Shown here: piece after piece, positions 119-13,428 of the stretch
Layout of the letters: every line of letters starts with the position of its first letter
Position numbering within the stretch: position 1 is the stretch's first letter
Origin: a bacterium
GTDB lineage: Bacteria > Eremiobacterota > Eremiobacteria > Baltobacterales > Baltobacteraceae
DNA length: 13,428 nt
Reading direction: 5' to 3'
NCBI GenBank assembly: GCA_021781095.1
Contig: JAJXXM010000116.1
Coordinates: forward strand, 1-13,428
Program-made: the position numbers and the translations under genes
The notes under the pieces: model-generated
What the model was told of the DNA's origin: nothing
The model's database searches: none
The model's input: only the letters and a program-made list of their open reading frames with translations

Positions 119-1540
119 TTAGGGTTTGAGCTCCAATGCTCCTTCCGATAGAGGGCTCTCCTGGTGAAGCCGCTCGAAGCGAGCGGTGAAGTGGCGCAGG
201 GGCGGAGCCTGCCAGAGCATGCGCAGCCCCACGATCCGTTCGCGCCGCGCGTAGAGCTCCTCGCAGACCTCGCCGACGTAATCGATGTGGCTCTGCGTGT
301 AGACCCGGCGCGGAATCGCGAGGCGGACCAGTTCCATCGGGGCGGTGCGCTCCTCGCCGCTGAGCGGGTCGGTCGAGCCGAACATGACCGTGCCGATCTC
401 GACCGCGCGAATGCCGCCTTCGAGATAGAGCTCGCCGACGAGCGCTTGCCCCGGATACTCCTGCGGACGCAGGTGGGCGAGCATCGCGCCGGCATCGATG
501 TAGATGGCGTGCCCGCCGGGCGGCTGCACGATCGGAATGCCGATCTCGGTGAGGCGACGCCCCAAATACGCGGTCGAGGCGATACGGTAGTGGAGATAAT
601 CCTCGTCGAGCGCCTCGTTGAGCCCCGTCGCCATCGCTTCTAAATCGCGCCCCGCGAGGCCGCCGTAGGTGGTGAAGCCTTCGGTGAGGATCAGCAGGCG
701 CGATTCCGCACTCGCCAGCGCGGCATCGTTGCTCGCGAGAAATCCGCCGATGTTCACTAAGCCATCTTTCTTCGCCGACATCGTGCAGCCGTCGGCGTAG
801 GAGAAGAGTTCGCGCGCGATCTCGCGCGGCGAGCGCCCCGCATAGCCGGGCTCTCGTTCGCGAATGAACCAGCAGTTCTCCGCGTAACGACAGGCATCGA
901 TATAGAGCGGTATGCCGTGCTCGCGGCAGATTGCGTGAATCGCTTTGACGTTCGCCATCGAGACCGGCTGGCCGCCGCCGGAATTATTCGTGACCGTCAG
1001 CATGACCAACGGCACGCGCTTCGCGCCGACCTCGGCGACGAGCGCGCGCAGCGCCTCGACATCCATATTGCCTTTGAACGGATGCTGCGTCGCCGGGGAG
1101 CGCCCCTCGGGAATCGGCAGGTCGACGGCGCGCGCGCCGACGCTCTCGACGTGCGCGCGCGTGGTATCGAAGTGCGTGTTGTTCGGAACGACGTCGCCGG
1201 GTTTGCAGAGCGTCGTGAAGAGAATGCGCTCCGCCGCGCGTCCTTGATGCGTCGGCAACACGTGTTGGAAGCCGAAGATCTCGCGCACCGTTTCGGCGAA
1301 GCGGTAGAAGGAGCGCGCCCCGGCGTACGATTCGTCGCCGCGCATGATGGAGGCCCACTGGTCGGCGCTCATCGCACCGGTCCCACTATCGGTGAGGAGA
1401 TCGATCAGCACGTCCTCGGCGCGGAGTAAGAACGGGTTGAAGGCGGCCTCCCGTAGGTAGCCCTCGCGTTCCTCGCGCGTGGTCATGCGGATCGGTTCGA
1501 CGGATTTAATTCGAAATGGCTCGATAATCGACCGAGGCAT
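119..1540 (-). CDS. tnaA: tryptophanase (L-tryptophan indole-lyase), PLP-dependent
   Basis: This 473-aa beta-eliminating lyase would cleave L-tryptophan to indole, pyruvate and ammonia in the cytosol. Family hallmarks are the IDLLTDSGTGAMS segment (about residues 46-58), GDESYAG (68-74), THQGR (97-101), GGQPVSMAN (189-197) and the PLP lysine in SAKKD (K258). Tryptophanase and tyrosine phenol-lyase share this fold. Three specificity positions point to tryptophanase: Asp125 (E. coli TnaA Asp137; Thr in tyrosine phenol-lyase), Ile382 (TnaA Ile394; Arg381 in tyrosine phenol-lyase) and His450 (TnaA His463; Phe in tyrosine phenol-lyase). Length matches the family (E. coli 471 aa), with a short extra C-terminal tail. 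The ATG at 1540 was chosen because AAGGAG lies 5 nt upstream; a longer in-frame extension would run through the divergent maoC gene. There is no tnaC-like leader: only 31 nt separate it from maoC. Confidence 0.92.
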   Translation of the reverse strand: MPRSIIEPFRIKSVEPIRMTTREEREGYLREAAFNPFLLRAEDVLIDLLTDSGTGAMSADQWASIMRGDESYAGARSFYRFAETVREIFGFQHVLPTHQGRAAERILFTTLCKPGDVVPNNTHFDTTRAHVESVGARAVDLPIPEGRSPATQHPFKGNMDVEALRALVAEVGAKRVPLVMLTVTNNSGGGQPVSMANVKAIHAICREHGIPLYIDACRYAENCWFIREREPGYAGRSPREIARELFSYADGCTMSAKKDGLVNIGGFLASNDAALASAESRLLILTEGFTTYGGLAGRDLEAMATGLNEALDEDYLHYRIASTAYLGRRLTEIGIPIVQPPGGHAIYIDAGAMLAHLRPQEYPGQALVGELYLEGGIRAVEIGTVMFGSTDPLSGEERTAPMELVRLAIPRRVYTQSHIDYVGEVCEELYARRERIVGLRMLWQAPPLRHFTARFERLHQESPLSEGALELKP

Positions 1541-2126: not shown

Positions 2127-2574
2127 CTTCGCGTTCGATCTCGGCGAATCGCGCCGCAAGGTCGCTACCCGAGAAATCGTCGAGCGCTTGTTCGATCGAA
2201 AGGAAGACCGCCTCGTTCTCCCGCGCGATGTGCTCGCGCAGGTATGCAATGAAGCTTCGCAACTCGGCGATCCCCGATTGCCCTCGCTCGCGCGCGCAGA
2301 CGACGGCGCGCACGAGTCCGCGTCCTTCTTCGTGCTGTTCGTTCAACAAGAGTGCGAAGCCGCTTAACCACGGATGGGCCTCGGTGGCGCGAAAGAGCGC
2401 ACGCTCTTCCTTTCCGTGATGGTTGGCATCGATGAAGATGTGGATGAACGCCAAGAGCTCGTCGAGGTATTCGGGCGAGAGCTCTTCCCCTGCCGCACTC
2501 CGTTGCTCGAAACGATCGAAGACGTCGAGTATGCGGCGATGCTCGTCGCGAAGGACGTCGAGTGCGCCGGTCAC
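2035..2574 (-). CDS. hemerythrin-like domain protein, last gene of the bzd operon
   Basis: This 179-aa protein contains a hemerythrin HHE domain (about residues 5-130), a four-helix bundle with an oxo-bridged di-iron site that binds or reacts with O2 or NO. Candidate iron ligands are His12 in DEHRRI, His45, His52 or His53 and Glu56 in ANHHGKEE, His81 in NEQHEEG, and His115 plus Glu119 in REHIARE. There is no signal peptide or membrane segment, so it is cytosolic. The start is GTG at 2574, overlapping the bzdQ stop as GTGA, which implies translational coupling; a much longer open frame upstream is a shadow of bzdQ. Its place at the end of an operon for an O2-sensitive reductase suggests O2 scavenging or sensing (inference). 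The C-terminal 50 residues lie beyond the hemerythrin fold and have no recognised motif. Confidence 0.88.
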   Translation of the reverse strand: MTGALDVLRDEHRRILDVFDRFEQRSAAGEELSPEYLDELLAFIHIFIDANHHGKEERALFRATEAHPWLSGFALLLNEQHEEGRGLVRAVVCARERGQSGIAELRSFIAYLREHIARENEAVFLSIEQALDDFSGSDLAARFAEIEREVIERWKIADPDEEHRSIADLRRWDALLVRV

Positions 2575-3362
2575 GCAGCGCTCTTCTCGATCCGTCGCTT
2601 CGAGAGTAGCGCTGCGCCGAGTGCGCCGGCCATCTCCGGCTGCGGCGCGCAGTTGATCGGCACCTCGAGCGCCTCTTGGAGCGCGCGAATCATTCCCGCC
2701 TGGTAGCCCATGCCGCCGACGAGCGTCACTTCCTCTTCGATGCCGATGCGTTTGACCAGCAGCACCGCACGCTCCGCGAGCGACTGGTGAACGCCGCGCA
2801 AAATGTTCTCGCGCGTCTCGCCCCGGCTGACGTGGTTGATAATCTCCGATTCCGCCAGCACGGCGCAGACGCTCGAGATCGCGACCGGATTCTCGCCGTT
2901 CATCGAAAGGCCGCCGACCTCCGCGAGCTCGGTTTCGAGATACTTGGCAGCGCGCTCGACGAAGCCACCGGCTCCGGCGGCGCATTTTTCGTTCGATTTG
3001 AATTCGCGGACGCGCCCGCCCGGTGCGATCTTCACCGCGCGCGAACTCTGCGCCCCGATATCGAGAACGCAGCGCGTTCCGGGGAAGAGCGCGGCCGCCC
3101 CGTACGCCGCCGCGGTTACTTCCGTGAGTTGGAGATCGCGTTCGGGGTAGCTCGAGCGGCCGAAGCCCGTCGTCGCGATATAGTGGAGGTCGCCGCGCTC
3201 GGCGCCGATGCTCGCGAGCGCTTCGTCGACGGCGCGGTCGACGAGTTCGATCAACGGCGGGCGCGTGCGCGTCGTATGTGCGTGGAGCTGCTTCCCGTCA
3301 CGATCGATGAGCACCACCTTCGTGCTGCGCGAGCCCAAATCGACGCCGGCAATGATCTGCAT
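2571..3362 (-). CDS. bzdQ: benzoyl-CoA reductase ATPase subunit, BzdQ/BcrD type
   Basis: This 263-aa protein is a BadF/BadG/BcrA/BcrD-family ATPase with the ASKHA fold. It hydrolyses ATP to push electrons from a [4Fe-4S] cluster into the catalytic subunits of class I benzoyl-CoA reductase. Visible motifs are DLGSRSTK (phosphate-1, residues 8-15), DIGAQSSRAVK (101-111), the cluster cysteine in NEKCAAGAG (Cys127), the second in SSVCAVLAESE (Cys166), and LVGGMG (214-219). Cys127 and Cys166 have the spacing of the HgdC cluster ligands. The Arg in DIGAQSSR and the CAVLAE...INHVSRG stretch resemble BcrD/BadG, which supports the delta-subunit assignment, as does its position as fourth reductase gene. 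ATG at 3362 has AAAGGAG 7 nt upstream and follows the bzdP stop by 12 nt. Its own stop overlaps the hemerythrin start. Confidence 0.88.
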   Translation of the reverse strand: MQIIAGVDLGSRSTKVVLIDRDGKQLHAHTTRTRPPLIELVDRAVDEALASIGAERGDLHYIATTGFGRSSYPERDLQLTEVTAAAYGAAALFPGTRCVLDIGAQSSRAVKIAPGGRVREFKSNEKCAAGAGGFVERAAKYLETELAEVGGLSMNGENPVAISSVCAVLAESEIINHVSRGETRENILRGVHQSLAERAVLLVKRIGIEEEVTLVGGMGYQAGMIRALQEALEVPINCAPQPEMAGALGAALLSKRRIEKSAA

Positions 3363-3374
3363 CTGCGTTCTCCT

Positions 3375-4169
3375 TTACGAAGCGGCGGCGGCCGAGAGTG
3401 CGTGTTCGAGTGCAAACACCGCAGCACCGATCGCGCCCATGTAGTGTGAATCGGGGCTCACGTTGAGCGGGGCTCCGAGCTTCTCTTCGAGCATCTTCAC
3501 CATGCCGACGTTGAGCGATACGCCGCCGGTGAACGTATAGTTCGGTTTCAGGCCGACGCGCCGAACGAGCGCGATCGTTCGCGCCGCGATCGCGCTGTGG
3601 ATGCCGCCGAGAATATCCTCGGTCTTCTTTCCCTGCGCGACGTACGACATGATGTCGGATTCGACGAAGACCGTGCAAACGGTCGAGAGGCGCACGGGAT
3701 TGCGCGCTTGCAGCGAGATCGCGCCGATTTCGTCGAGCGAGAGGCCGAGCGTTTCGGCGGCGGTGGAGAGAAAACGCCCCGTCCCGGCGGCGCACTTATC
3801 GTTCATAACGAAATCGACGACCTCGCCGTTCTGAACGCTGATGCCCTTCGCATCTTGGCCGCCCATATCGATCACGGTCGCGGTATCGGGGAAGAGCAAG
3901 CTCGCGCCCTTGGCGTGACAGGTGATCTCGGTGATCTGCAGATCGCCGAACGAGACTTTGAAGCGGCCGTACCCGGTGCCCACGACGCAGAGCACGTCCT
4001 CGCGGGCGATGCCGCCGGCGGCGAGCACCGCTTCGTAGCCGCGCTCGCCGGCGCGGGTGATGTTCGCCCCGGTATCGGTGAGCGCGCGCGCGACGATCTG
4101 CTTGTTTTCGTCGATGATGATGCACTTGGTCTGCGTCGAGCCGACGTCGATGCCCGCTGCATATTTCAT
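3375..4169 (-). CDS. bzdP: benzoyl-CoA reductase ATPase subunit, BzdP/BcrA type
   Basis: This 264-aa ASKHA ATPase is paralogous to the next gene and is the expected partner in the reductase's ATP-driven electron-activating module. It keeps the canonical activator motifs: DVGSTQTK (8-15), [10 protein letters not shown] (101-110), [11 protein letters not shown] with Cys126, [11 protein letters not shown] with Cys165, and FTGGVSLN (213-220). The two Cys would supply ligands for the [4Fe-4S] cluster shared across the ATPase pair. At 264 aa it matches the short BzdP form; Thauera BcrA is about 438 aa, which argues for an Azoarcus-type enzyme. ATG at 4169 overlaps the bzdO stop as ATGA, and AAGGAG sits 7 nt upstream inside bzdO. 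Taken alone it could also be a 2-hydroxyacyl-CoA dehydratase activator, but two ATPases beside two HgdB-like subunits plus dch and had make benzoyl-CoA reductase much more likely. Confidence 0.88.
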
Positions 4170-5431
4170 GCCGTTACTCCTTCTCGTGTCGGGCGATGGG
4201 CGATGGATTCGAAGAACGCGTCGATGCGGTTGCGCATCTGCGCCTCCGAGAAATAGCGTGGATCTTCAAGATCGGATTCCACGAGCAACGTCGGCACGCC
4301 GCGCTTGGTGAAATATTCGCGCATATCGCCCTGCCCGGCGGAGAACAGGCGGCAGCTCTTCACCGAATGGATGATGAGGGCGTTCGCGTTCCACTCCTCG
4401 AGGTAGCGTTCGATCTGTTCGTAACGCTGCAAGAAGTTGCGGTTGGTGAGGTTCCACTCCAGAAGGTGGCGCGCGATCGATTCCAACGGATGGTCGGGAT
4501 CGTGGGTGAAGCCGAATTCCCAGAGCCCGCCGACGGTGGAGTAGGTCGAGGCGACGGCGACCGCGTCCCAGCGCGAGAACATATCGCGGAACGCTCGAAG
4601 GTGCGGCCAGGGCGGCGGCCCCTCGATCACGTAGCGGAAGCGCTCTTTTTCGAGCGGCCCGACGCCGGCCTCGGCCTTCGCGAGCAGTTCGGCGTATGCG
4701 GTCTCGAAAAATTCGAGCCCCTGCGGCGTGCCGCGCAGGCAATAGAGCGGCGCCATCATGGTGACGGAATCGAAATAGGCGTCGTAGGGCGCCGGGGTGC
4801 GCTTGGTGAGATGTTTGATTTTCGCCCAGAGATCGCCGGTGAGCGACGAGAGGCGCACCGCCTCGCGGAGCTTTTCTTCGTTGAGCTTGCGCCCGGTAAT
4901 CTCTTCGCAACGCCCGATGAGGTGGTGGAGCTGGCGCAGGACGTAGGCGATATCTTCTTTCGACGGTTTCCCGGAGGCCGTTCGAATGAACGGAATATCG
5001 AGCTGGAACGCCGATTGCCCGGTGAATTCTGCGAGGTGCCCGAACCAATCGAGATAGACGTTGCAGCCGACGTAATTGCACAGCAGGAGCGATGGTTCGG
5101 GGATCGTGGCGAAGGGCGTCTGCCGCCCACCGAAATACATCCCGATATCGGCTTTGACGTAGGCGCAATTATCCGACGAGTAGCCCATGAATTCGGCGGA
5201 CTGAATGAATGGCAGCGACTGTTTGCGCACCGCGAGTTGCAGCGCGTTGACCTCCGGAAAGACCGGAAGAATATCGAACGCGCGCAGCAGCTCCACCGGG
5301 TTCCCGCCGATCAGCAGATACGCAGCGGGGACGCCGCTGCCGTTCGCCGATGCGGTAAGCGCCGCATAGTACTCCGACATCAGCTCTTTTTGCAGATGGT
5401 GAAGCTTTCCCTGATAGTGGGTCTCGGTCAT
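4166..5431 (-). CDS. bzdO: benzoyl-CoA reductase catalytic subunit, BzdO/BcrB type
   Basis: This 421-aa protein belongs to the 2-hydroxyacyl-CoA dehydratase D-component (HgdB) family. As the larger catalytic subunit of class I benzoyl-CoA reductase it would help bind benzoyl-CoA and a [4Fe-4S] cluster for ring reduction to cyclohexa-1,5-diene-1-carbonyl-CoA. Visible traits are an N-terminal [14 protein letters not shown] region (39-52), conserved cysteines at SSDNCAYVK (Cys89), CNYVGCN (Cys118, Cys123) and VKSCRLFS (Cys360), the EGPPPWP motif (270-276), and the C-terminal [14 protein letters not shown] segment (385-398) typical of the family. ATG at 5431 was chosen because TAGGAG lies 8 nt upstream; the G-A-rich site includes the bzdN stop codon. 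The gap to bzdN is 11 nt and its stop overlaps bzdP. Which Cys are true ligands cannot be proven from sequence. Confidence 0.88.
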
Positions 5432-5442
5432 CGCACGTACTC

Positions 5443-6621
5443 CTAATCGAAAAGAAGGGACTCGACGAACGTTTCGATCTCGCCTTTGATCCGATCGAAC
5501 ATCCACATTTTTTCTTCGAACTCCAAGAAGAGATGCGGGATGCCGGCTTCTTGCAACGTCTTGCGGTAGGTCGGATAAGCGAAGAGGGATGGTTCGCAAA
5601 ATTTCGCGCAGAGCACGATGACGGCATCGGCTCGGTGCGAGCGGGCGCGCTCGACGAGAAGGCGAGCGGGCGAAACGCGCATGTCGTGCTTCACGGGCGA
5701 CGGCAGCGAGGCATCGAGGTAGGCTTCGGCGAGCGCGAGCAGCGGGTCGCCGGTGTTTTCGGGGACGTCGCCGGTAAACCAGCGGCGACCGATGAGAAAA
5801 TCGTCATCGACGAGATAGCAGCCCGCGTCTTCGATCGCCGCGATTAAATCGAGCGGCGGTTGTTCGCAGAACGATCCGGTGAGCACGACGCGAATGCGGT
5901 CGCGCTCCCGTCCTTCGCGCGTCGCGGCGGCGTGCAATGCGTCGGCGAGCAACTCGGCGTGCTCTTCGGGCGGCAGGAGATGGCCGACGCGGACGAGCGG
6001 ATAGAGCTCGCGCGTGCGCAACAAGTGCGGGGAATCGCGCCGTAGTGCGTAGAGGCGACGGATCGTATCGCGAACGCGATTGTAGATGCGAATCGCCGCG
6101 CGGAGATCCTCGGTCGTCATGCTCCGCCCACTCAGCTCGGCGGCGAAGCGCGCGACGCGCTCGTACTCGTCGCGGAGATACCGCGGTGCCTCTTCGGCCT
6201 CGAAATTCTGCGGAAAGTGGATGTATTCGACCGGGGTGTTCGGGAAGTTGCGCGAGTAGACGCTCGCGAGATTGCGAGCGGGGTCGCATATGGAATGGAA
6301 GACGACGCCGTCGAGATCGTCGAGCAGCCCGGTCATCCCTTGCTCGAGCGTGCTTTTGATGATGGAACAGATGAACGATTGAAAGCGCGAGTCGGCGTGC
6401 GCGATCTCCATGCGGTTGCCGCCGCCCGCGAGCCCGACCGGTAGCACGCCGGAGGCGTAAAAAACTTCGGCGGGCGTATAGACCGGGAAGCACCCGATCG
6501 CCGCGCGATTCGGAGCGGCGTTCTTCCAAGCGACGGCGGGTGCGAAGCCGGGCTCTTCGATGAGGCGATCGCAACGCTCGACGAGTGCATCGATGGTTGG
6601 AGAGAGGGTCTGCGTGCTCAT
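5443..6621 (-). CDS. bzdN: benzoyl-CoA reductase catalytic subunit, BzdN/BcrC type
   Basis: This 392-aa HgdB-family protein is the smaller catalytic partner of BzdO. The N-terminal half has the family signature GCFPVYTPAEVFYASGVLPV (43-62), then FICSIIKS (Cys85) and HSICDPARN (Cys112). The C-terminal half carries LTGSFCE (Cys252) and LCAKFCEPSLF (Cys338, Cys342), near the usual cluster or active-site region, and ends in FLEFEEKMW (365-373). Length fits BcrC/BzdN (about 380-390 aa). ATG at 6621 follows AGGAAGG with suitable spacing and lies 12 nt past the had stop. The order N-O-P-Q here is the same as in Azoarcus. The alternative, a 2-hydroxyacyl-CoA dehydratase subunit, is less likely given the downstream-pathway genes upstream in the same operon. 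Confidence 0.88.
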   Translation of the reverse strand: MSTQTLSPTIDALVERCDRLIEEPGFAPAVAWKNAAPNRAAIGCFPVYTPAEVFYASGVLPVGLAGGGNRMEIAHADSRFQSFICSIIKSTLEQGMTGLLDDLDGVVFHSICDPARNLASVYSRNFPNTPVEYIHFPQNFEAEEAPRYLRDEYERVARFAAELSGRSMTTEDLRAAIRIYNRVRDTIRRLYALRRDSPHLLRTRELYPLVRVGHLLPPEEHAELLADALHAAATREGRERDRIRVVLTGSFCEQPPLDLIAAIEDAGCYLVDDDFLIGRRWFTGDVPENTGDPLLALAEAYLDASLPSPVKHDMRVSPARLLVERARSHRADAVIVLCAKFCEPSLFAYPTYRKTLQEAGIPHLFLEFEEKMWMFDRIKGEIETFVESLLFD

Positions 6622-6633
6622 AGCGCTTCCTTC

Positions 6634-7662
6634 CTATTGCGAGGGAACGACGATCGTACGCAGGCCGATGCCGGCGCGTAAAAAGTCGAGGCCGCGATTG
6701 ATATCTTGGAGCGAGACGCGTTCGCTCACCAATTCCGTGATGCGAATGCGCCCGCGCCGCGCGAGTTCGATGATGCGCGGATAATCGACGGGGCGGCAGC
6801 CGAGCGAGCCGCGGATCTCCAATTCGGTAAACATCACTTTGCCCGCCGGAATCTCCGCCGGTTCCGAGCAGAAACCGACGACGACGATGCGGCCGCCGCG
6901 CCGAACGCTCTCGATTGCGGTGCGAACCGTCTTGGGATTGCCGATCGCTTCGAAGGCGATGTCGGCGCCGCCGTCGGTCGCACGGCGCACCGCGCGCGCG
7001 ACGTCGGGTGCGGCGCTCGCGTCGATAACGTGAGCGGCACCGAATTGCAGCGCGAATTCCAAACGCTCGGGTTTCATATCGACCGCCCACACCTCGGCGC
7101 CCGCGGCGACGGCGATCTGAATGACGTTGATTCCGACGCCGCCGCAGCCGAAGACGACCACGCGGTCTCCGGGGCGCACCTCCCCGCGATTGACGACGGC
7201 GTGATAGGGCGTCGAGACGGCGTCGGCGATGAGGCAGGCTTCGATGAGCGGCAGCTCCGGCGGGAGCGACAAGACGTCTTTTGCCGGGACTTTGAGAAAT
7301 TCGGCGTAGGCGCCGTCGATATGGTTGCCGAGCATCACGCCGTTCGCGCAGATGTTTTCGCGCCCGCGTCGGCAGGCTTCGCAGCGGCCGCAGGAGAGGA
7401 CGGCGGGAACGAGCACGCGATCGCCGACGTGCCGTTCGGTAACGCCATCGCCGACGGCGAAGACCGTTCCGGAGGCCTCGTGCCCGAGAACCAAGGGCGG
7501 CGGCGCGAAGGTCGGCACGCCGTGATCGATATAGTGCAGATCGGTGTGGCAGAGGCCGCACGCCGCAACTTTTATGACGATCTCGCCGTACTCGGGGACC
7601 GGAATCGGGCGCTCTTGGATTTCGAGCGGCCGATTCGGCCCGATGAAAACCGCGGCTTTCAT
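6634..7662 (-). CDS. had: zinc alcohol dehydrogenase, likely 6-hydroxycyclohex-1-ene-1-carbonyl-CoA dehydrogenase
   Basis: This 342-aa medium-chain zinc dehydrogenase would oxidise 6-hydroxycyclohex-1-ene-1-carbonyl-CoA to the 6-oxo compound with NAD+. Catalytic zinc candidates are Cys38 in GLCHTD and His61-Glu62 in LGHEASG. The structural zinc site is complete (Cys91, Cys94, Cys97, Cys105). The Rossmann motif GCGGVG (172-177) is followed by Asp195 at the end of the second strand, which favours NAD over NADP. The protein alone would only be called a zinc-dependent alcohol dehydrogenase. Its placement between an Oah-like hydrolase and bzdN makes the Had/BzdX role the best call. Length is slightly below Thauera Had (about 368 aa). 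ATG at 7662 overlaps the upstream stop as ATGA. Confidence 0.82.
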   Translation of the reverse strand: MKAAVFIGPNRPLEIQERPIPVPEYGEIVIKVAACGLCHTDLHYIDHGVPTFAPPPLVLGHEASGTVFAVGDGVTERHVGDRVLVPAVLSCGRCEACRRGRENICANGVMLGNHIDGAYAEFLKVPAKDVLSLPPELPLIEACLIADAVSTPYHAVVNRGEVRPGDRVVVFGCGGVGINVIQIAVAAGAEVWAVDMKPERLEFALQFGAAHVIDASAAPDVARAVRRATDGGADIAFEAIGNPKTVRTAIESVRRGGRIVVVGFCSEPAEIPAGKVMFTELEIRGSLGCRPVDYPRIIELARRGRIRITELVSERVSLQDINRGLDFLRAGIGLRTIVVPSQ

Positions 7663-8489
7663 CGACGCGAGCGCCGGATTCCGGCGTAATCGGGTTCGCG
7701 CTTTTCAACGAAGGCGCGCATGCCTTCGGCGGTTTCGGCGCCGGCGAAATGCGATGCCAGCCATTCGCGGGCGTGCCCGATCGTCGCGTACCACGATTGG
7801 TCTTTCCAATAATTCACCTGGCACTGCGTGTAACTCAAGCACTGCGGGAACTTATCGAGCAGCTTGTTGCAGAGGTCGCGCACGACGTCGTCGAGTTGCT
7901 CGTACGGCGCGACGCGGTTGACGAGTCCCCAATCGAGCGCTTGCGCGGCGGTGATCGGCTCGCAGAGGAAGAGCATCTCACGCGCTCGGCGGTCGCCGAC
8001 GATGATCGGCAGCCATTGCGTGCCGCCGCCCGCCGCGACGCTGCCGACCCGCGTGCCGACCTGTCGGATCGTCGCGTGTTCGGCTGCGACCGCGAGATCG
8101 CAGGCCATATTCATCTCGTTTCCGCCGCCGACCGCCATGCCGTTGATGCGCGCGATCGTCGGTTTGCCCATATTGCGAATGGAATCGAGGCAATCTTGGA
8201 AGAGCACCATGTACTTCCAAAACTGTTCGGGATGCTCGACGTAGCGTTCCGCGTACTCTTTCACGTCGCCGCCGGTGCAAAACGCTTTGCGGCCGGCACC
8301 GGTGAGCACTACGACGCCGACTTCGTCGTCCCACATCGCGCGCCGGAGCGCGTCGTGCAGGCGCCCGAGCGTCTCGGTCGTGTAGGCGTTATAGGCATGC
8401 GGGCGATTGAAGGTAATCGTCGCCACGCGGTCGTCGACGGAATAGAGAACGTCTTCTTGCGCGGTGCTCGCTTCGGTAGTCGCGGTCAT
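7659..8489 (-). CDS. oah: crotonase-family ring hydrolase, compact Oah-like (6-oxocyclohex-1-ene-1-carbonyl-CoA hydrolase)
   Basis: This 276-aa crotonase-fold protein would add water twice and open the ring of 6-oxocyclohex-1-ene-1-carbonyl-CoA to 3-hydroxypimelyl-CoA. Oah-like stretches include NAYTTE (34-39), AFCTGGDVKEYAERY (69-83) followed by a long helix, INGMAVGGGNEMNMACD (115-131, oxyanion hole), GTRVGSVAAGGGT (145-157) and LCEP (175-178). Known Oah/BamA proteins are about 360-380 aa; this one lacks the roughly 50-residue insertion after the LVNRVAP region and ends with an EGMRAFVEKREPDY segment that resembles the ends of BadI and other short crotonases. It may therefore be a compact Oah or an intermediate between Oah and BadI. 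The ATG at 8489 overlaps the dch stop as ATGA, with AGGAG 10 nt upstream. Confidence 0.75.
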   Translation of the reverse strand: MTATTEASTAQEDVLYSVDDRVATITFNRPHAYNAYTTETLGRLHDALRRAMWDDEVGVVVLTGAGRKAFCTGGDVKEYAERYVEHPEQFWKYMVLFQDCLDSIRNMGKPTIARINGMAVGGGNEMNMACDLAVAAEHATIRQVGTRVGSVAAGGGTQWLPIIVGDRRAREMLFLCEPITAAQALDWGLVNRVAPYEQLDDVVRDLCNKLLDKFPQCLSYTQCQVNYWKDQSWYATIGHAREWLASHFAGAETAEGMRAFVEKREPDYAGIRRSRR

Positions 8490-9247
8490 CGATAGTCATC
8501 TCCTGTGGGAAGGGTGTGCGCCCAAACGGGAGAGCGCTTTTCAAGGAATGCCGCTATGCCCTCGGCCCCGTCGCGGCTCGGTAAAAGCTCGTCGCGATAC
8601 GCGCGCATCGCCAGCGATAGATCGTCGAGCCGAATCGCGCGCTTACAGGCGCGAACGGCGACCGCCGAATAGCCCAAGAGCCGTTCGCAGAGCGCTTCGG
8701 TCGCGGCGGAGAGCTCCTCGGGAGCGACGACCTCGCTCACCACGCCCCACGCAAGCGCGCTCTGCGCGTCGATTTTTCGTCCGGTGAGGATCGCGTTGAA
8801 CGCGCGTTGCGTCCCGATCGCGCGCGGCAACAACGCGCAGGCGATCGGCGGAAGAGCGGCGAGCTGCACCTCGGGGAGCGAGAAAAACGCGCGCGTCGAA
8901 CAGAGTGCGATGTCGGCGAGCAGGAGCAACTCGAAGCCGCCGCCCATCGCGGGTGCGTTCGCGGCGCAGACGATCGCCGGTGAGGCGGAGAGAAACGCGC
9001 TCGCCATCTCTTCGAACGCCGCCAACATCTCCGGCGCCTTCTCGGGCACGTGATCGCCGACTTCGACGCCCGCGCAGAACGCGCGTTCGCCGGCGGCTTC
9101 GATGCTGACGACGGTGCAGCGCTCGCTCTCGCGGATCGCTGCGGTCAGCGCGCGAATATCGGCGATGCCCAACACGTTGAGCGCCCCGGCTTGCAGCGTG
9201 ATGCGGGCGCGGCGTTCGTCGCGCGCCACGGCGATGCGCTCGCTCAC
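8486..9247 (-). CDS. dch: crotonase-family hydratase, likely cyclohexa-1,5-dienecarbonyl-CoA hydratase
   Basis: This 253-aa enoyl-CoA hydratase/isomerase family protein probably adds water to the diene released by benzoyl-CoA reductase, giving 6-hydroxycyclohex-1-ene-1-carbonyl-CoA. Features are FCAGVEVGDHVPEKAPEML (57-75), similar to the ASVEEHLP region remembered from Dch rather than the usual AGAD of fatty-acid hydratases, MGGGFELLLLAD (101-112, oxyanion hole), and FSLPEVQLAALPPIACALLPR (start 122), which matches the Dch-type PEI..GVF.P segment. Length equals the Dch family (about 250-258 aa). The start is GTG at 9247, forming a GTGA overlap with the tetR stop; open frame upstream of that is a shadow of tetR. 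A general enoyl-CoA hydratase role is possible, but the operon context favours Dch. Confidence 0.78.
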   Translation of the reverse strand: MSERIAVARDERRARITLQAGALNVLGIADIRALTAAIRESERCTVVSIEAAGERAFCAGVEVGDHVPEKAPEMLAAFEEMASAFLSASPAIVCAANAPAMGGGFELLLLADIALCSTRAFFSLPEVQLAALPPIACALLPRAIGTQRAFNAILTGRKIDAQSALAWGVVSEVVAPEELSAATEALCERLLGYSAVAVRACKRAIRLDDLSLAMRAYRDELLPSRDGAEGIAAFLEKRSPVWAHTLPTGDDYR

Positions 9248-9834
9248 CGCGATGCCCGCGCGACGAGCGCGCCGCTGCGAAAGCCGTGAAGAAAGAGCTC
9301 GGTGAGCCGCTCGGCGGCGGCGTCGACATCGCCGTCGGCCTCTTCGCGATACCAGGTCGGCGCCCAATTCAACATGCCGAAGAGCGCGCCCGCCGCCATG
9401 CGCGCGTTCTCTTCCGCGTGCGGATCGAGTGCCGCGAGGAGATCGACGAGCGATTGAAAGTAGCGACGGCGGCGCGCGCGCGTGCTGCCGCTCGAATCGC
9501 GGTCGAGCGCCTGAAGATCGTGCAACAGGACGCGGTACGAACGACTGTTGGTTAATAGATAGCGCAGGTGGCCGCGCACGAAGGCGGCGAGCCGCTCGTG
9601 CGGATCGGAGAGCCGAGCGCTCTCGGCCGTTCCCGCTTCGAGCCGGTCGAAAATGCGTTCGCAGACGAACGAGAGCGCTTGTTGCTTGCTCGGGAGGTAG
9701 TAGTAGAGCCCGGCGACGCTGATACACGAGGCGCGCGCGATATCGCGCATGCTGGTCGCGTGGAAGCCCTGCTGTGCGAAGAGCGCCTCGGCGCTGTCGA
9801 GAATATCTTCGTACCGTTGGTCGTAGGCCTGCAC
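9244..9834 (-). CDS. TetR-family transcriptional regulator, first gene of the bzd operon
   Basis: This 196-aa protein has an N-terminal TetR helix-turn-helix (about residues 8-54) with FAQQGFHATSMRDIA and the typical SVAGLYYYLPSKQQAL recognition and connector segment. The C-terminal half is the variable, all-helical ligand and dimer domain, with no recognisable ligand motif. It is read first in the operon and its stop overlaps the dch start (GTGA), so it should be autoregulated with the pathway. The inverted repeats at 9856-9892, just upstream of its ATG, are the likely binding sites. A CoA-thioester such as benzoyl-CoA would be a logical inducer (inference). Known benzoyl-CoA operons use BzdR or BadR regulators of other families. 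ATG at 9834 has a purine-rich GAGGGGG 8 nt upstream. Confidence 0.88.
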   Translation of the reverse strand: MQAYDQRYEDILDSAEALFAQQGFHATSMRDIARASCISVAGLYYYLPSKQQALSFVCERIFDRLEAGTAESARLSDPHERLAAFVRGHLRYLLTNSRSYRVLLHDLQALDRDSSGSTRARRRRYFQSLVDLLAALDPHAEENARMAAGALFGMLNWAPTWYREEADGDVDAAAERLTELFLHGFRSGALVARASR

Positions 9835-9938: not shown

Positions 9939-10571
9939 CTAGGTCAAATGAATCAGGCCACGCTGCAGCGCGAGGACGACCGCTTCGGCGCGCGAGTGGG
10001 CGCCGAGCTTCTGCAGCAGATTGCCGATGTGGTTGCGGGCGGTCGCCGGGGCGAGCTGCAGCTCCTCGGCGATCTGGGTGGTCCGGAGCCCCTGCGAGAG
10101 CAGGCGAAGGACGTCGCGCTCGCGCCCGGTGAGGGCGACCGCCGGCATGGAGGGCGGCGGCGGGCTCGGTTGACGATCGCGTTGCATGCCCGCGGCGATC
10201 CGCTTAAGGTGGCGCGCGGCGACGCTCTCGCAGAGCAGGTGGAGGGCGATGGGGCGGCCGCGCTCGTCGGGGACGACGCAGGTGACCGCATCGAGCCAGA
10301 GATCGCTGCCGTCGGGGTGCGGAATGACGATTTCGAAACGGCGCGGCGCCCGAAATTGCGCGCAGCTCTTTTGCACCGCGCAGCCGGGCATGCAGAGGTG
10401 CGAACCCGAGGGGGTTCGCCCGGCGAGGACCTCGTGGCAGGGGCGCCCGAGCGCCTCTGCTTCGCTGCGGCCGAGTAAGGCAGCGGCGGCGCTATTCCAA
10501 AGGACGATCGTTCCGCTCTCGTCGATGCCGACGAGCGCGTCGGCGCTCTGCCCGAGGCGTAGCGACGACAT
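9939..10571 (-). CDS. PAS domain LuxR/GerE-type transcriptional regulator with Cys-rich sensor
   Basis: This 210-aa protein has an N-terminal PAS domain (about residues 6-118, with SADALVGIDESGTIVLWN at 9-26) and a C-terminal LuxR/GerE helix-turn-helix (about 145-206, LTGRERDVLRLLSQG and the ATARNHIGNLLQKLG recognition helix), joined by a Pro-rich linker (135-143). The PAS domain carries four closely spaced cysteines, Cys45, Cys60, Cys64 and Cys70, possibly a metal, Fe-S or redox site (inference). There is no receiver domain, so it is not a standard response regulator. The ATG at 10571 follows directly on the stop codon of the chemoreceptor gene (TAGATG) with no ribosome binding site, implying translational coupling and a shared function. 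The targets are unknown; the bzd operon immediately downstream is a plausible one. Confidence 0.87.
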   Translation of the reverse strand: MSSLRLGQSADALVGIDESGTIVLWNSAAAALLGRSEAEALGRPCHEVLAGRTPSGSHLCMPGCAVQKSCAQFRAPRRFEIVIPHPDGSDLWLDAVTCVVPDERGRPIALHLLCESVAARHLKRIAAGMQRDRQPSPPPPSMPAVALTGRERDVLRLLSQGLRTTQIAEELQLAPATARNHIGNLLQKLGAHSRAEAVVLALQRGLIHLT

Positions 10572-13238
10572 CTATTGTGCCGATGCGAAGAGCCGGTTGC
10601 GTTCGCGTTCGAGACGGTCGGCGGTCTCGATCGCTTCGGAGCATTCGTTGGCGTATTCGTGGATGAGCTCGGCCATCTGCATGTAGTCGCCGTACATTGC
10701 ATATGCGCGCTGCGCTGCGGCGCGCGATTCGCGTTCGGCATCTCCGAGCGTGGTGTTCGCCGCAGCGACGAACCCGCCGATGCGTTCGAACGCCGCTTGC
10801 GCGGCACGCGCGTGCCGACCGCTCGCCTCGGCTTTGCTGACGTCGGAGGCGATGGCGCCCGCGGTCGCTTTGCTGCGCTTGTCGAGATCGGCGAGCACCG
10901 AGCGTATCTCTTGCGTCGAGGATTTCGTTTTATCCGCGAGCTTGCGCACTTCGGTCGCAACGACGGAGAAGCCGCGTCCGTGTTCGCCGGCACGCGCCGC
11001 TTCGATCGCGGCGTTGAGGGCGAGCAGGTTCGTTTTGTCGGAGACCGCGCGGACCAGTCCGACGATATCGACGATTTGATTCATCGACTTCGCGAACTTT
11101 CCGAGCGCGTCGCGGCTCTGCATCGCCATCGCGGCGAGCGCGTCGATCGTGGAGAAGAGCCGCTCGACGATACGGTCGGCGTCGCCGAGTTGCGCCTGCG
11201 CCTGCGCGCAGCGCTCCCCAAGTGATGCGAAGCGGTCGGCGAGCCCGTTGCTGATCTCCGACATGCCGTGCGATTGCCCGGCGAGGCTCTTGAGCGAGCT
11301 CACGATCTCCGTCTGGGCGTTCTTGCCGATGCGCCCCGCCGAATTCCGCACCACCGCGACCGAGGTGTCGATCGCGTGGATGACTTCGTCGACCGAAAAC
11401 GCGCGCGTGTGCCGGGCGTCGATGGTGGCGCGTTGGTTGCTCCACGAATGCAGCTCGCGCGAGAGCAGCGCTTGGTAGATATCGGGCGGGAAGAGCGGCT
11501 CCATGCGCTCCCATACGAAGGTCGCGGCCTCGATAAATTGCTCGCGCTCGCTATCGGTGAAGCGATGCACCTCCAGGTGGCGCTGCAATTCGGAGAGCGC
11601 TTCGGCCTCTTGTTCGGCCGCGATCGCGCGGTGCATGTTGCGCGCCTCTTCGAACGCTTGGGCGAGCGCGTTGCGATCCTCCGGCGCGATTTGGCGCAAG
11701 CGATCGGTGTTTCCGAGCACGATCTGCGTGTTGTACGCGTGCGCGGTTAAGGTGAGATAACGCTGCCCTTCGTAGAGCTTCGCTCCAACGATATTCGCAA
11801 GTGGGTTCTCTTGTGCGTCGACGTCCTTCGCGACGAGTGCGTCGTGCACGCGGTTGAACGGAATCACTTTGGGGATCGAGCCGAACGCATGCATGAGCGC
11901 GAGGTAGACGACCGAATCTTGAATGCGCACGCGCATGCGTTTGAGATCGTCGGGCTGCGTGACGGGATGCAGCGAGTTGGTGAAATGCCGCATGCCGTTT
12001 TCGAGAAATCCGAGCCCCGTCAGGCCGAACGGGGCGAACGATTGCAGCACGTGGCGCCCGAGCGGGCCGTCGATCACGGCGTGCGCTTCGGCGGGCGTGC
12101 TGAAAACAAACGGGAGATCGAAGAGCTGGACTAACGGCGAGATCGAGCCGGCGACGAACGTCGTGACGCTGACGATATCGAGTTCGCCGGAGCGCACGCG
12201 CAGGAGCTCTTCTTGTTCGGTTCCGCCCTCGAACGGGATGTGCAATTCGATACGCAGGCGACCGGAGGTAAGTTCTTCGATGCGCTTCTGCACGTACTGC
12301 AGCGCGCGCGCCGGCGGATACCCGGGCGGCAGAAGCGTCGCGCAACGGAGCGTGGCCCCTTCGGAGCGGTGCACCGTACCCGAGCGCGAGAGATAGGCCA
12401 TCTCGGCGCCGTAATAGGAAAGACGCTGCGTTGCGAACGCCGCCTCGAGCGCTTCGCGCCCCTCTTCGGCCATCATCGTCGAGAGCGAGGCGGTGCGTTC
12501 GATCATTTTGTTCGACTGATCGCTCTGCTGCCCGCTCGCCTGCACCGCGCCGTCGATCGCGTGCGAGAGATCGGTCGAGAGCGAGGCGACCACCTGGATC
12601 GCTTCTTGCGCTTGCCGCGCGAGCGGCGCCGATTCCGCGGATTGCTCCGCGCTCGCCCGCACCGCCGCGATCGTCGCTTCCGCTTCGCGGCGCACTTCGA
12701 CGACGAGCCCGGTGATGACGGAGGTCGATTCGCCGGTGGTTTTCGCAAGCCGGCCGACTTCGCCGGCGACGACCGCGAAACCGAGCCCGTGCTTTCCCGC
12801 GCGCGCCGCCTCGATTGCGGCGTTGAGCGCGAGCAACTGCGTTTCGTCGGAGACATCTTCAACGAAGGCGGCCATGCGCCCGATCTCGCTCATCAGGCGA
12901 CCGAATTCATCCATCGCCGCGGCGGTCTGCCCGGAGAGCTCCGCGAGTTGTTGGACCGAGGTGAGGAGTTCGCCGACGACCTGAACGGATTCGGCGAGCG
13001 CGCTGGTGGTGGCGTGCGCTTGGGTCTGTGCCTGTTGGAGGCGCGAGGCGGTCGTCCAGGAATCGCGCGAGAGCAGATCCGCGGTCTCGGCGAGTGCGAC
13101 CATGAGCGTGGTCTGCTCCTGGGCCGTCGCCGCGATCGATTCCGAGATGCTCCGGACCGACTCGACGGCGTGGGAGATCGATTCGGAGAACTGCTCGAAC
13201 GAGGGGTCGAGCGCTGGGGCCGCGGACGCATCGATCAT
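10572..13238 (-). CDS. soluble chemoreceptor with a TRAP/DctP solute-binding domain between two MCP signalling domains
   Basis: This 888-aa protein has three parts. Residues ~15-275 form a methyl-accepting signalling domain with a tip at [17 protein letters not shown] (135-151). Residues ~290-600 match the DctP/SiaP solute-binding family of TRAP transporters: LPPGYP (303-308), a FDLPFVF hinge (373-379), Arg438 at the position of the carboxylate-binding arginine, and [11 protein letters not shown] (473-483). Residues ~605-885 form a second signalling domain with a tip at [19 protein letters not shown] (738-756). No signal peptide, transmembrane segment or HAMP domain is visible, so both the ligand domain and the signalling helices should be cytosolic. 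Output normally needs CheA/CheW, which are not in the window. ATG at 13238 was chosen because an upstream start at 13355 lies inside the repeat array. No clear ribosome binding site precedes it. Confidence 0.9.
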
Positions 13239-13281: not shown

Positions 13282-13428
13282 GTCACCCCGAGTAGCTGCG
13301 CTCTGTCACCCCGAGTAGCTGCCGAAGGCAGCGTATCGAGGGGCGATCTTGTCACCCCGAGTAGCTGCCGAAGGCAGCGTATCGAGGGGCAATGTTTGTC
13401 ATCCCGAGTAGCTGCCGAAGGCAGCGTA
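13282..13428. repeat. tandem REP-like hairpin repeat array (4 copies, last cut by window edge)
   Basis: Four direct copies of a 40-bp core begin at 13282 (5' part only, about 18 bp), 13305, 13351 and 13398 (truncated by the edge), with 6-7 nt linkers (GATCTT, AATGTTT) between the full ones. Each full core contains a perfect 6-bp stem GCTGCC-GAA-GGCAGC flanked by GTA on both sides. Outer arms CCCCGA and TCGAGGGG can pair with a single bulged A. The copies are nearly identical, apart from GTCACC versus GTCATCC at the fourth copy. The structure fits an extragenic palindromic element. It could act as a terminator, an mRNA-stability element or a mobile REP family member. No transposase is visible in the window. 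Confidence 0.85.

Follow-up and report, generated by a model that had tools for sequence, protein, structure and literature searches.

The stretch of DNA considered here (the window, 13,428 nucleotides from a bacterium of the Baltobacteraceae) carries, on its minus strand, a gene for a chemoreceptor in which a DctP-type binding-protein domain stands between two MCP signalling hairpins, followed by a regulator gene and a cluster of metabolic genes. Its features are the following:

2571..9834, minus strand: context genes (TetR regulator, crotonases, had-like dehydrogenase, BcrC/BcrB-like proteins, two BcrA/D-like activase genes)
9939..10571, minus strand: PAS-LuxR regulator, whose ATG abuts the receptor stop with no gap
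10572..13238, minus strand: MCP-DctP-MCP receptor gene, 888 codons, with the same frame in loci L001-L007
10578..11393, minus strand: hairpin 2 (MCP2), residues 616-887, from PF00015 and AlphaFold2 secondary structure
10929..11030, minus strand: hairpin 2 tip, residues 737-770, with canonical N737, R755 and R765
11439..12353, minus strand: DctP sensor domain, residues 296-600, with the TRAP binding-protein fold
11925..11927, minus strand: R438, the conserved DctP arginine, from alignment with solved TRAP binding proteins
12384..13205, minus strand: hairpin 1 (MCP1), residues 12-285, from AlphaFold2 secondary structure and PF00015
12738..12839, minus strand: hairpin 1 tip, residues 134-167, where Q134, L152 and G162 replace Tsr N376, R394 and R404

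The receptor gene and its domains

The receptor is encoded by one uninterrupted frame, with its ATG at 13238 and its stop at 10574-10572; the plus strand of 10572..13238 contains stops in frame 1. The earlier note had described a single 888-codon frame holding two MCP hairpins and a DctP domain, and this layout is borne out, on the minus strand, by the open reading frame, by Pfam, which detects MCPsignal (PF00015) in two stretches (E 1.6e-55 for the whole protein) and DctP (PF03480) at residues 302-579 (E 1.4e-63), within the segment 290-600 that had been assigned to it, and by TIGR00787 (dctP), whose match lies above its cut-off. Both hairpin tips are complete, as had been claimed, with motifs at approximately residues 133-154 and 736-757, a few residues from the places first given. 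A frameshift or assembly join within the gene is unlikely, because contigs L001-L007, which come from other MAGs (some of them from one study), share the frame with 0 stops, and because each of the three domains has a pN/pS of 0.03-0.12 against L004, L005 and L006, pointing to purifying selection; the hairpin 1 tip has zero amino-acid changes in these three comparisons.

Conservation was followed in an alignment of 116 rows (the window protein, 83 database proteins of 830-910 aa and 32 proteins from two-tip loci), which represent 97 distinct sequences and an effective number of 79 at 95% identity. A HAMP domain is absent by Pfam search and, judged by hydropathy alone, so are a signal peptide and a membrane helix, in agreement with the soluble protein first proposed. 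The highest Kyte-Doolittle 19-residue mean of the window protein is 1.66 and falls within DctP, the first 60 residues have a mean of at most 1.21 in all 116 rows, and the only row to reach at least 1.9 anywhere is P0002 (1.95, again within DctP). The findings that the earlier note had named as fatal to its proposal (a frameshift or join, failure of PF03480, a signal peptide or membrane helix) were thus each looked for, and none appeared.

In the AlphaFold2 secondary structure, the arms of the two hairpins are nearly equal in length (137/136 and 136/135 residues), and across the 116 rows hairpin 1 has no insertion and hairpin 2 a single one-residue difference. The link between DctP and hairpin 2 spans approximately 15 residues and is of low predicted confidence. 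The mean pLDDT of hairpin 1 is 82.7 when hairpin 2 is present and 68.8 when it is left out, in two runs whose alignments differ in depth (71 and 24 rows), which confounds the comparison; that of DctP in the same runs is 90.6 and 89.6. The methylation-site consensus has no match in the window protein in its strict form and one match per hairpin in a looser form. DctP-type nutrient-binding domains normally work outside the cell; the domain found here shares their fold, the best 50 matches listed in each fold search all being TRAP binding proteins, as are the best PDB sequence matches.

Asymmetry of the two hairpin tips

Residues of the tips are given in Tsr numbering, for which E402, R404 and R394 were taken from PMC6746300 and PMC6954272 and fitted to an alignment with solved MCPs, while N376, N381, E385 and R388 were derived by counting. 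Both hairpins have the marks of an MCP, namely a PF00015 stretch each and a tip in which N381, E385 and R388, together with E402, are invariant in all 116 rows. The tips diverge at three other positions. Hairpin 2 has N376 and R404 in every row, and at position 394 Lys in 92, Arg in 19 and another residue in 5, such that a basic residue at 394 is combined with R404 in 111 of 116. In hairpin 1, position 376 is Gln in 104 rows and Glu in 12, and Leu394 with Gly404 is found in 116/116 rows (97/97 distinct sequences), leaving the arginine pair that contacts CheW in 0/116.

The pattern can be set against other receptors. N376, R394 and R404 are present in 39 of the 39 readable sequences among 40 other MCPs of related genomes, a control set taken from the upper part of the PF00015 match list and therefore biased towards high scores. 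Single-hairpin MCP-DctP relatives, chosen from the matches, have R394 in 22/22 and R404 in 20/22, the two exceptions (P0094 and P0102) having Gly at 404, as does P0122 of Sporomusa. In six membrane-anchored relatives, position 394 is Ala in five and Lys in one, and R404 is present in five. The Leu-Gly pair is hence confined to hairpin 1 among the sequences compared, and single departures occur elsewhere.

The invariance of N381, E385, R388 and E402 across both hairpins makes hairpin 1 look like a specialised hairpin rather than a decaying one. In the E. coli core unit, according to simulations, R394, R404 and E402 of the outer dimer subunits contact CheW strongly (PMC6954272). Two further roles are reported for these arginines: R404 takes part in an E402-R404 salt bridge between receptors within the trimer (PMC6954272, PMC6746300), and Tsr R394 also contacts CheA P3 and P4 (PMC6746300). 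The earlier note had envisaged two helical bundles docking separately to one or two arrays, an arrangement that finds no support here because hairpin 1 is without both CheW-contact arginines in all 116 rows.

Family, distribution and origin

A scan of genome contigs yielded 24 loci, 20 of which (L001-L020) encode tandem receptors, complete or truncated where a contig ends; every one of the 20 comes from a MAG whose label is Candidatus Eremiobacterota or simply 'bacterium'. A protein search gave 96 matches, and a second one, run with alignment A1, returned 5190, the top 120 being listed. Among 149 Eremiobacterota genomes, 32 match A1 at E <= 1e-80, and 25 hold the tandem receptor: 23 in full length, assigned by reading the match rows, one split over two contigs (G001) and one partial (G004); the remaining A1 matches are single-hairpin types or fragments. 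The receptor belongs to a conserved Eremiobacterota family.

The single-hairpin relatives are approximately 600 aa long, with the hairpin first and DctP after it. P0122 of Sporomusa is membrane-anchored and has HAMP, MCP and then DctP. P0122 and P0123-P0125 have N-terminal hydrophobic segments with DctP past the signalling hairpin, such that DctP probably faces the cytosol; for P0122, it is this topology that leads to the expectation. The existence of membrane-anchored and single-hairpin MCP-DctP forms suggests that a cytosolic DctP sensor is probably a theme wider than this window. One genome (G127) has both a full tandem receptor and a match of the single-hairpin type, on separate contigs, and allows the two forms to be compared.

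In the best trees, hairpins 1 and 2 are sisters (support 95/88 and 92/50) beside a single-hairpin clade, on long branches, and the AU test does not reject trees that pair either hairpin with the single ones (p-AU 0.351 and 0.372). Our best guess is that the tandem may have arisen by internal duplication.

Chemotaxis and transport genes in genomes that carry the receptor

The tandem receptor is found in 14 of 60 related genomes, including the split and partial copies of G001 and G004; of the genomes compared, G001 is the nearest to the window. Flagellin is present in 14/14 carriers, CheA and CheW each in 12/14 and CheR in 13/14, counts that are to be read in the light of the carriers' shared ancestry. 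Most have one CheA and one CheW. The misses are CheA and CheW in G002 and G004, and CheR in G004, genomes that are 88% and 61% complete. In G008, CheA shares its gene row with FlhA, a PilZ protein, a CheY-like receiver-domain protein, CheC and CheW, and the two CheW-domain matches of this genome fall in a 171-aa single-domain CheW and in CheA. From these counts and the G008 gene row it follows that a flagellar chemotaxis system is present.

No transporter that this DctP could serve is recognisable. DctM, the TRAP permease, was found in 0/10 genomes of the genus (some incomplete), and among the 14 carriers (genomes partly incomplete) it has no strong match and one weak one (G036, E 3.3e-5); strong matches occur in 11 other relatives, all non-carriers. 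A TRAP subunit is exported or periplasmic and partnered with DctQ/DctM, whereas the domain described here has the DctP fold and the conserved arginine with no signal peptide or helix by hydropathy and no strong DctM. The recruitment of DctP as an intracellular sensor, as first suggested, is supported by this lack of export and membrane signals. Given the flagellar and Che genes of the carriers, and a TRAP permease search without any strong match among them, we read the DctP fold as a sensor put to a new use, apparently inside the cell.

Ligand and neighbouring genes

R438, which we take, like the earlier note, to be the carboxylate-binding arginine of the DctP family, falls in the alignment at the position where the four solved TRAP binding proteins listed have their Arg, and it is Arg in 116/116 rows. 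Together with a motif that begins ENGx (13 protein letters not shown), DxQENPL and HxYNTQ, all of which presumably lie at the DctP pocket, it is 95-100% conserved over the 116 rows. From family knowledge, the ligand is likely an organic acid. Of the organic or aromatic acid first proposed, the unspecified organic acid fits R438, and the aromatic part is not supported: R438 and the motifs are nearly identical in carriers with and without bcrB. A link to benzoate or to aromatic degradation likewise finds no support, the bcr cluster being specific to the window's genus among the loci compared, and three carriers that are at least 94% complete (G019, G021 and G023) having near-identical pocket motifs and no bcrB.

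Among the loci compared, whose neighbouring genes were picked by codon-usage scoring, both the PAS-LuxR gene and the bcr-type cluster lie next to the receptor in the window's genus and in no other. The neighbours in other genera resemble murI, topA and trmFO, judged by eye from protein starts, with a murI-like gene at 13 loci, one contig being counted twice (L017 and L068). The PAS domain of the regulator (9939-10571, minus strand) has a cysteine group, C-M-P-G-C, followed by a third Cys. The genes at 2571-9247 (minus strand) form a divergent cluster of the benzoyl-CoA reductase type, in which the BcrC- and BcrB-like proteins do not reach the NCBIfam cut-offs and the two activase subunits, at 264 and 263 aa, are almost the same size; bcrB is found in 8/10 genomes of the genus. 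This gene row ends (119-1486, minus strand) with an enzyme of the tryptophanase / tyrosine phenol-lyase type, above the tryptophanase subfamily cut-off and below three equivalog cut-offs. Upstream of the receptor, at 13304-13428, is a 46-base tandem repeat with the palindromic core CTGCCTTCGGCAG; four genomes of the genus that were searched each contain between 5 and 10 exact copies of the repeat's 26-base core, and an exact-copy search found none in G021 and G036.

A proposed single-chain receptor dimer

Ordinary MCPs build a four-helix bundle from two chains. The explanation that we favour, with a probability of roughly 0.57, is that the protein is a natural soluble single-chain receptor with a putative pairing of its own hairpins, hairpin 1 in the inner and hairpin 2 in the outer place, and one sensor that serves as the linker. 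The division of labour is proposed on account of the clean conservation pattern and the published array structure: one hairpin with the CheW arginines and one without both fits a single-chain dimer with fixed inner and outer halves. The two hairpins of one chain would fold together into a four-helix bundle, hairpin 1 being placed towards the trimer axis and hairpin 2 gripping CheW, and DctP at the base would connect the helix that ends hairpin 1 with the helix that opens hairpin 2. When an organic acid from the cytosol binds, the DctP cleft could close and move these two helices relative to each other, and this shift would in turn alter CheA activity and steer the flagella. The feasibility of such a chain is indicated by the engineered single-chain Tsr~Tsr, which is reported to sense and signal (PMC4692393).

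The asymmetry of the tips, the matched arms, the rise in pLDDT when the partner hairpin is present, purifying selection and the flagellar genes all count for the single-chain dimer. Against it count the occurrence of G404 alone in 2/22 single-hairpin relatives and in P0122, and of Ala394 in 5/6 membrane-anchored ones, as well as the retention of N381, E385, R388 and E402 by both hairpins. A weaker alternative is that hairpin 1 could have lost R404 through a change in contacts within the trimer, not through the inner place as such, because R404 also makes the E402-R404 bridge between receptors. Covariation between the hairpins was analysed by MI-APC and mean-field DCA (116 rows, effective number 47), and the positive controls within hairpins failed, a limit that applies to all its outcomes: in mean-field DCA the pooled in-register pairs score above all 104 slid offsets, in MI 18 of the 104 offsets are as high as the in-register pairs, and the top 50 pooled pairs have no in-register enrichment.

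Two-chain or strand-swapped assemblies are possible and form the strongest competitor, albeit an unlikely one. Here, hairpins would pair 1-1' and 2-2' (or in a swapped manner), only the hairpin 2 bundle would dock CheW, and the hairpin 1 bundle would be otherwise employed. Single-hairpin MCP-DctP relatives, which as MCPs are expected to form two-chain dimers, speak for such an assembly, as does the subunit swapping that happens in engineered single-chain receptors (PMC4692393); however, the retention of N381, E385, R388 and E402 in hairpin 1 in 116/116 rows is hard to explain in the absence of an array role, and the hairpin arms are matched in length. Considerably less probable is a bridge like that of DosM, a soluble receptor with two signalling domains that spans two layers (PMC7534058, PMC9321776), in which opposed hairpins would connect the two CheA/CheW layers of an array in the cytoplasm, with DctP mid-way; hairpin 1 is without the CheW arginines in all 116 rows, the concatenated triple CheW that marks DosM and the F9 class was not found in the genus genomes, each of which has 0 or 2 CheW-domain matches, and 98% of DosM homologues in one survey have no sensory domain (PMC9321776). 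Least probable of all is a cytosolic sensor outside motility that would control the neighbouring aromatic-acid cluster through PAS-LuxR, for although this regulator begins immediately past the end of the receptor gene and, wherever a contig of the genus extends far enough, bcr-type genes come next on that strand, the other genera compared have different receptor neighbours and no PAS-LuxR, three carriers at least 94% complete are without bcrB, and the pocket motifs are nearly unchanged.

The single-chain dimer can be taken one step further, tentatively and at slightly less than even odds, to a pseudo-heterodimer in which inner and outer roles are split between the hairpins, an asymmetric CheW surface fixes the orientation in the array, and one intracellular binding-protein domain, in the place of two sensors, is both sensor and linker. 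In an ordinary chemoreceptor dimer the subunits are identical, and the inner and outer roles are therefore difficult to probe by experiment; with single-chain Tsr, Mowery et al. made a tool for testing subunit roles and met subunit swapping (PMC4692393). If the pseudo-heterodimer holds, the receptor would be nature's own experiment, with the CheW arginines on one hairpin of one chain, conserved in an Eremiobacterota receptor family, and would offer a ready tool for the study of array asymmetry. The TRAP binding-protein fold serves in it as a sensor, in genomes with no recognised TRAP permease.

Comparison with known systems

The nearest solved structure to the sensor domain is the TRAP binding protein 4p47 (DctP, PF03480), with which it shares the fold, the conserved Arg and the QENP motif; unlike TRAP DctP, it has no signal peptide by hydropathy and is fused to MCP hairpins, in a genus whose 10 genomes yielded no DctM. 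Single-hairpin MCP-DctP proteins (the P0103 type and the membrane-anchored P0122) likewise have an MCP hairpin followed by a C-terminal DctP that is expected to be cytosolic, but carry one hairpin per chain, and the P0103 type keeps R394 and mostly R404. Searches of open-licence papers turned up no account of receptors with a DctP-MCP or MCP-DctP-MCP layout, in keeping with the earlier note, to which no described receptor of this layout was known; this has to be qualified, because soluble single-chain MCPs and DosM are already in print.

DosM (VC1403, F9 chemosensory class) is likewise soluble, and two signalling domains in a soluble chain are found in the receptor described here as well; in DosM, 98% of surveyed homologues are without a sensory domain, CheW is concatenated, and two array layers are bridged, as reported in PMC9321776 and PMC7534058. 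Engineered Tsr~Tsr also has covalently joined subunits, such that one chain can supply both, but as presented in PMC4692393 it is transmembrane and consists of two copies of one receptor, each with its ligand domain, connected by a synthetic linker. Natural soluble single-chain MCPs likewise have two MCP signalling hairpins in one chain; compared by description only, they come with no mention of a sensor domain, whereas the present receptor has a DctP linker and differing tips. Their function is called unknown in PMC4692393, where it is asked whether they evolved ways around swapping.

Since export and permease features were not found, the receptor is not a TRAP component, and by its CheW genes it is not a DosM; it is best described as a soluble single-chain MCP whose sensor is a repurposed binding-protein domain. 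MCPs of a single chain, and DosM with its two signalling domains, are already known, and the new point is the asymmetry of the tips.
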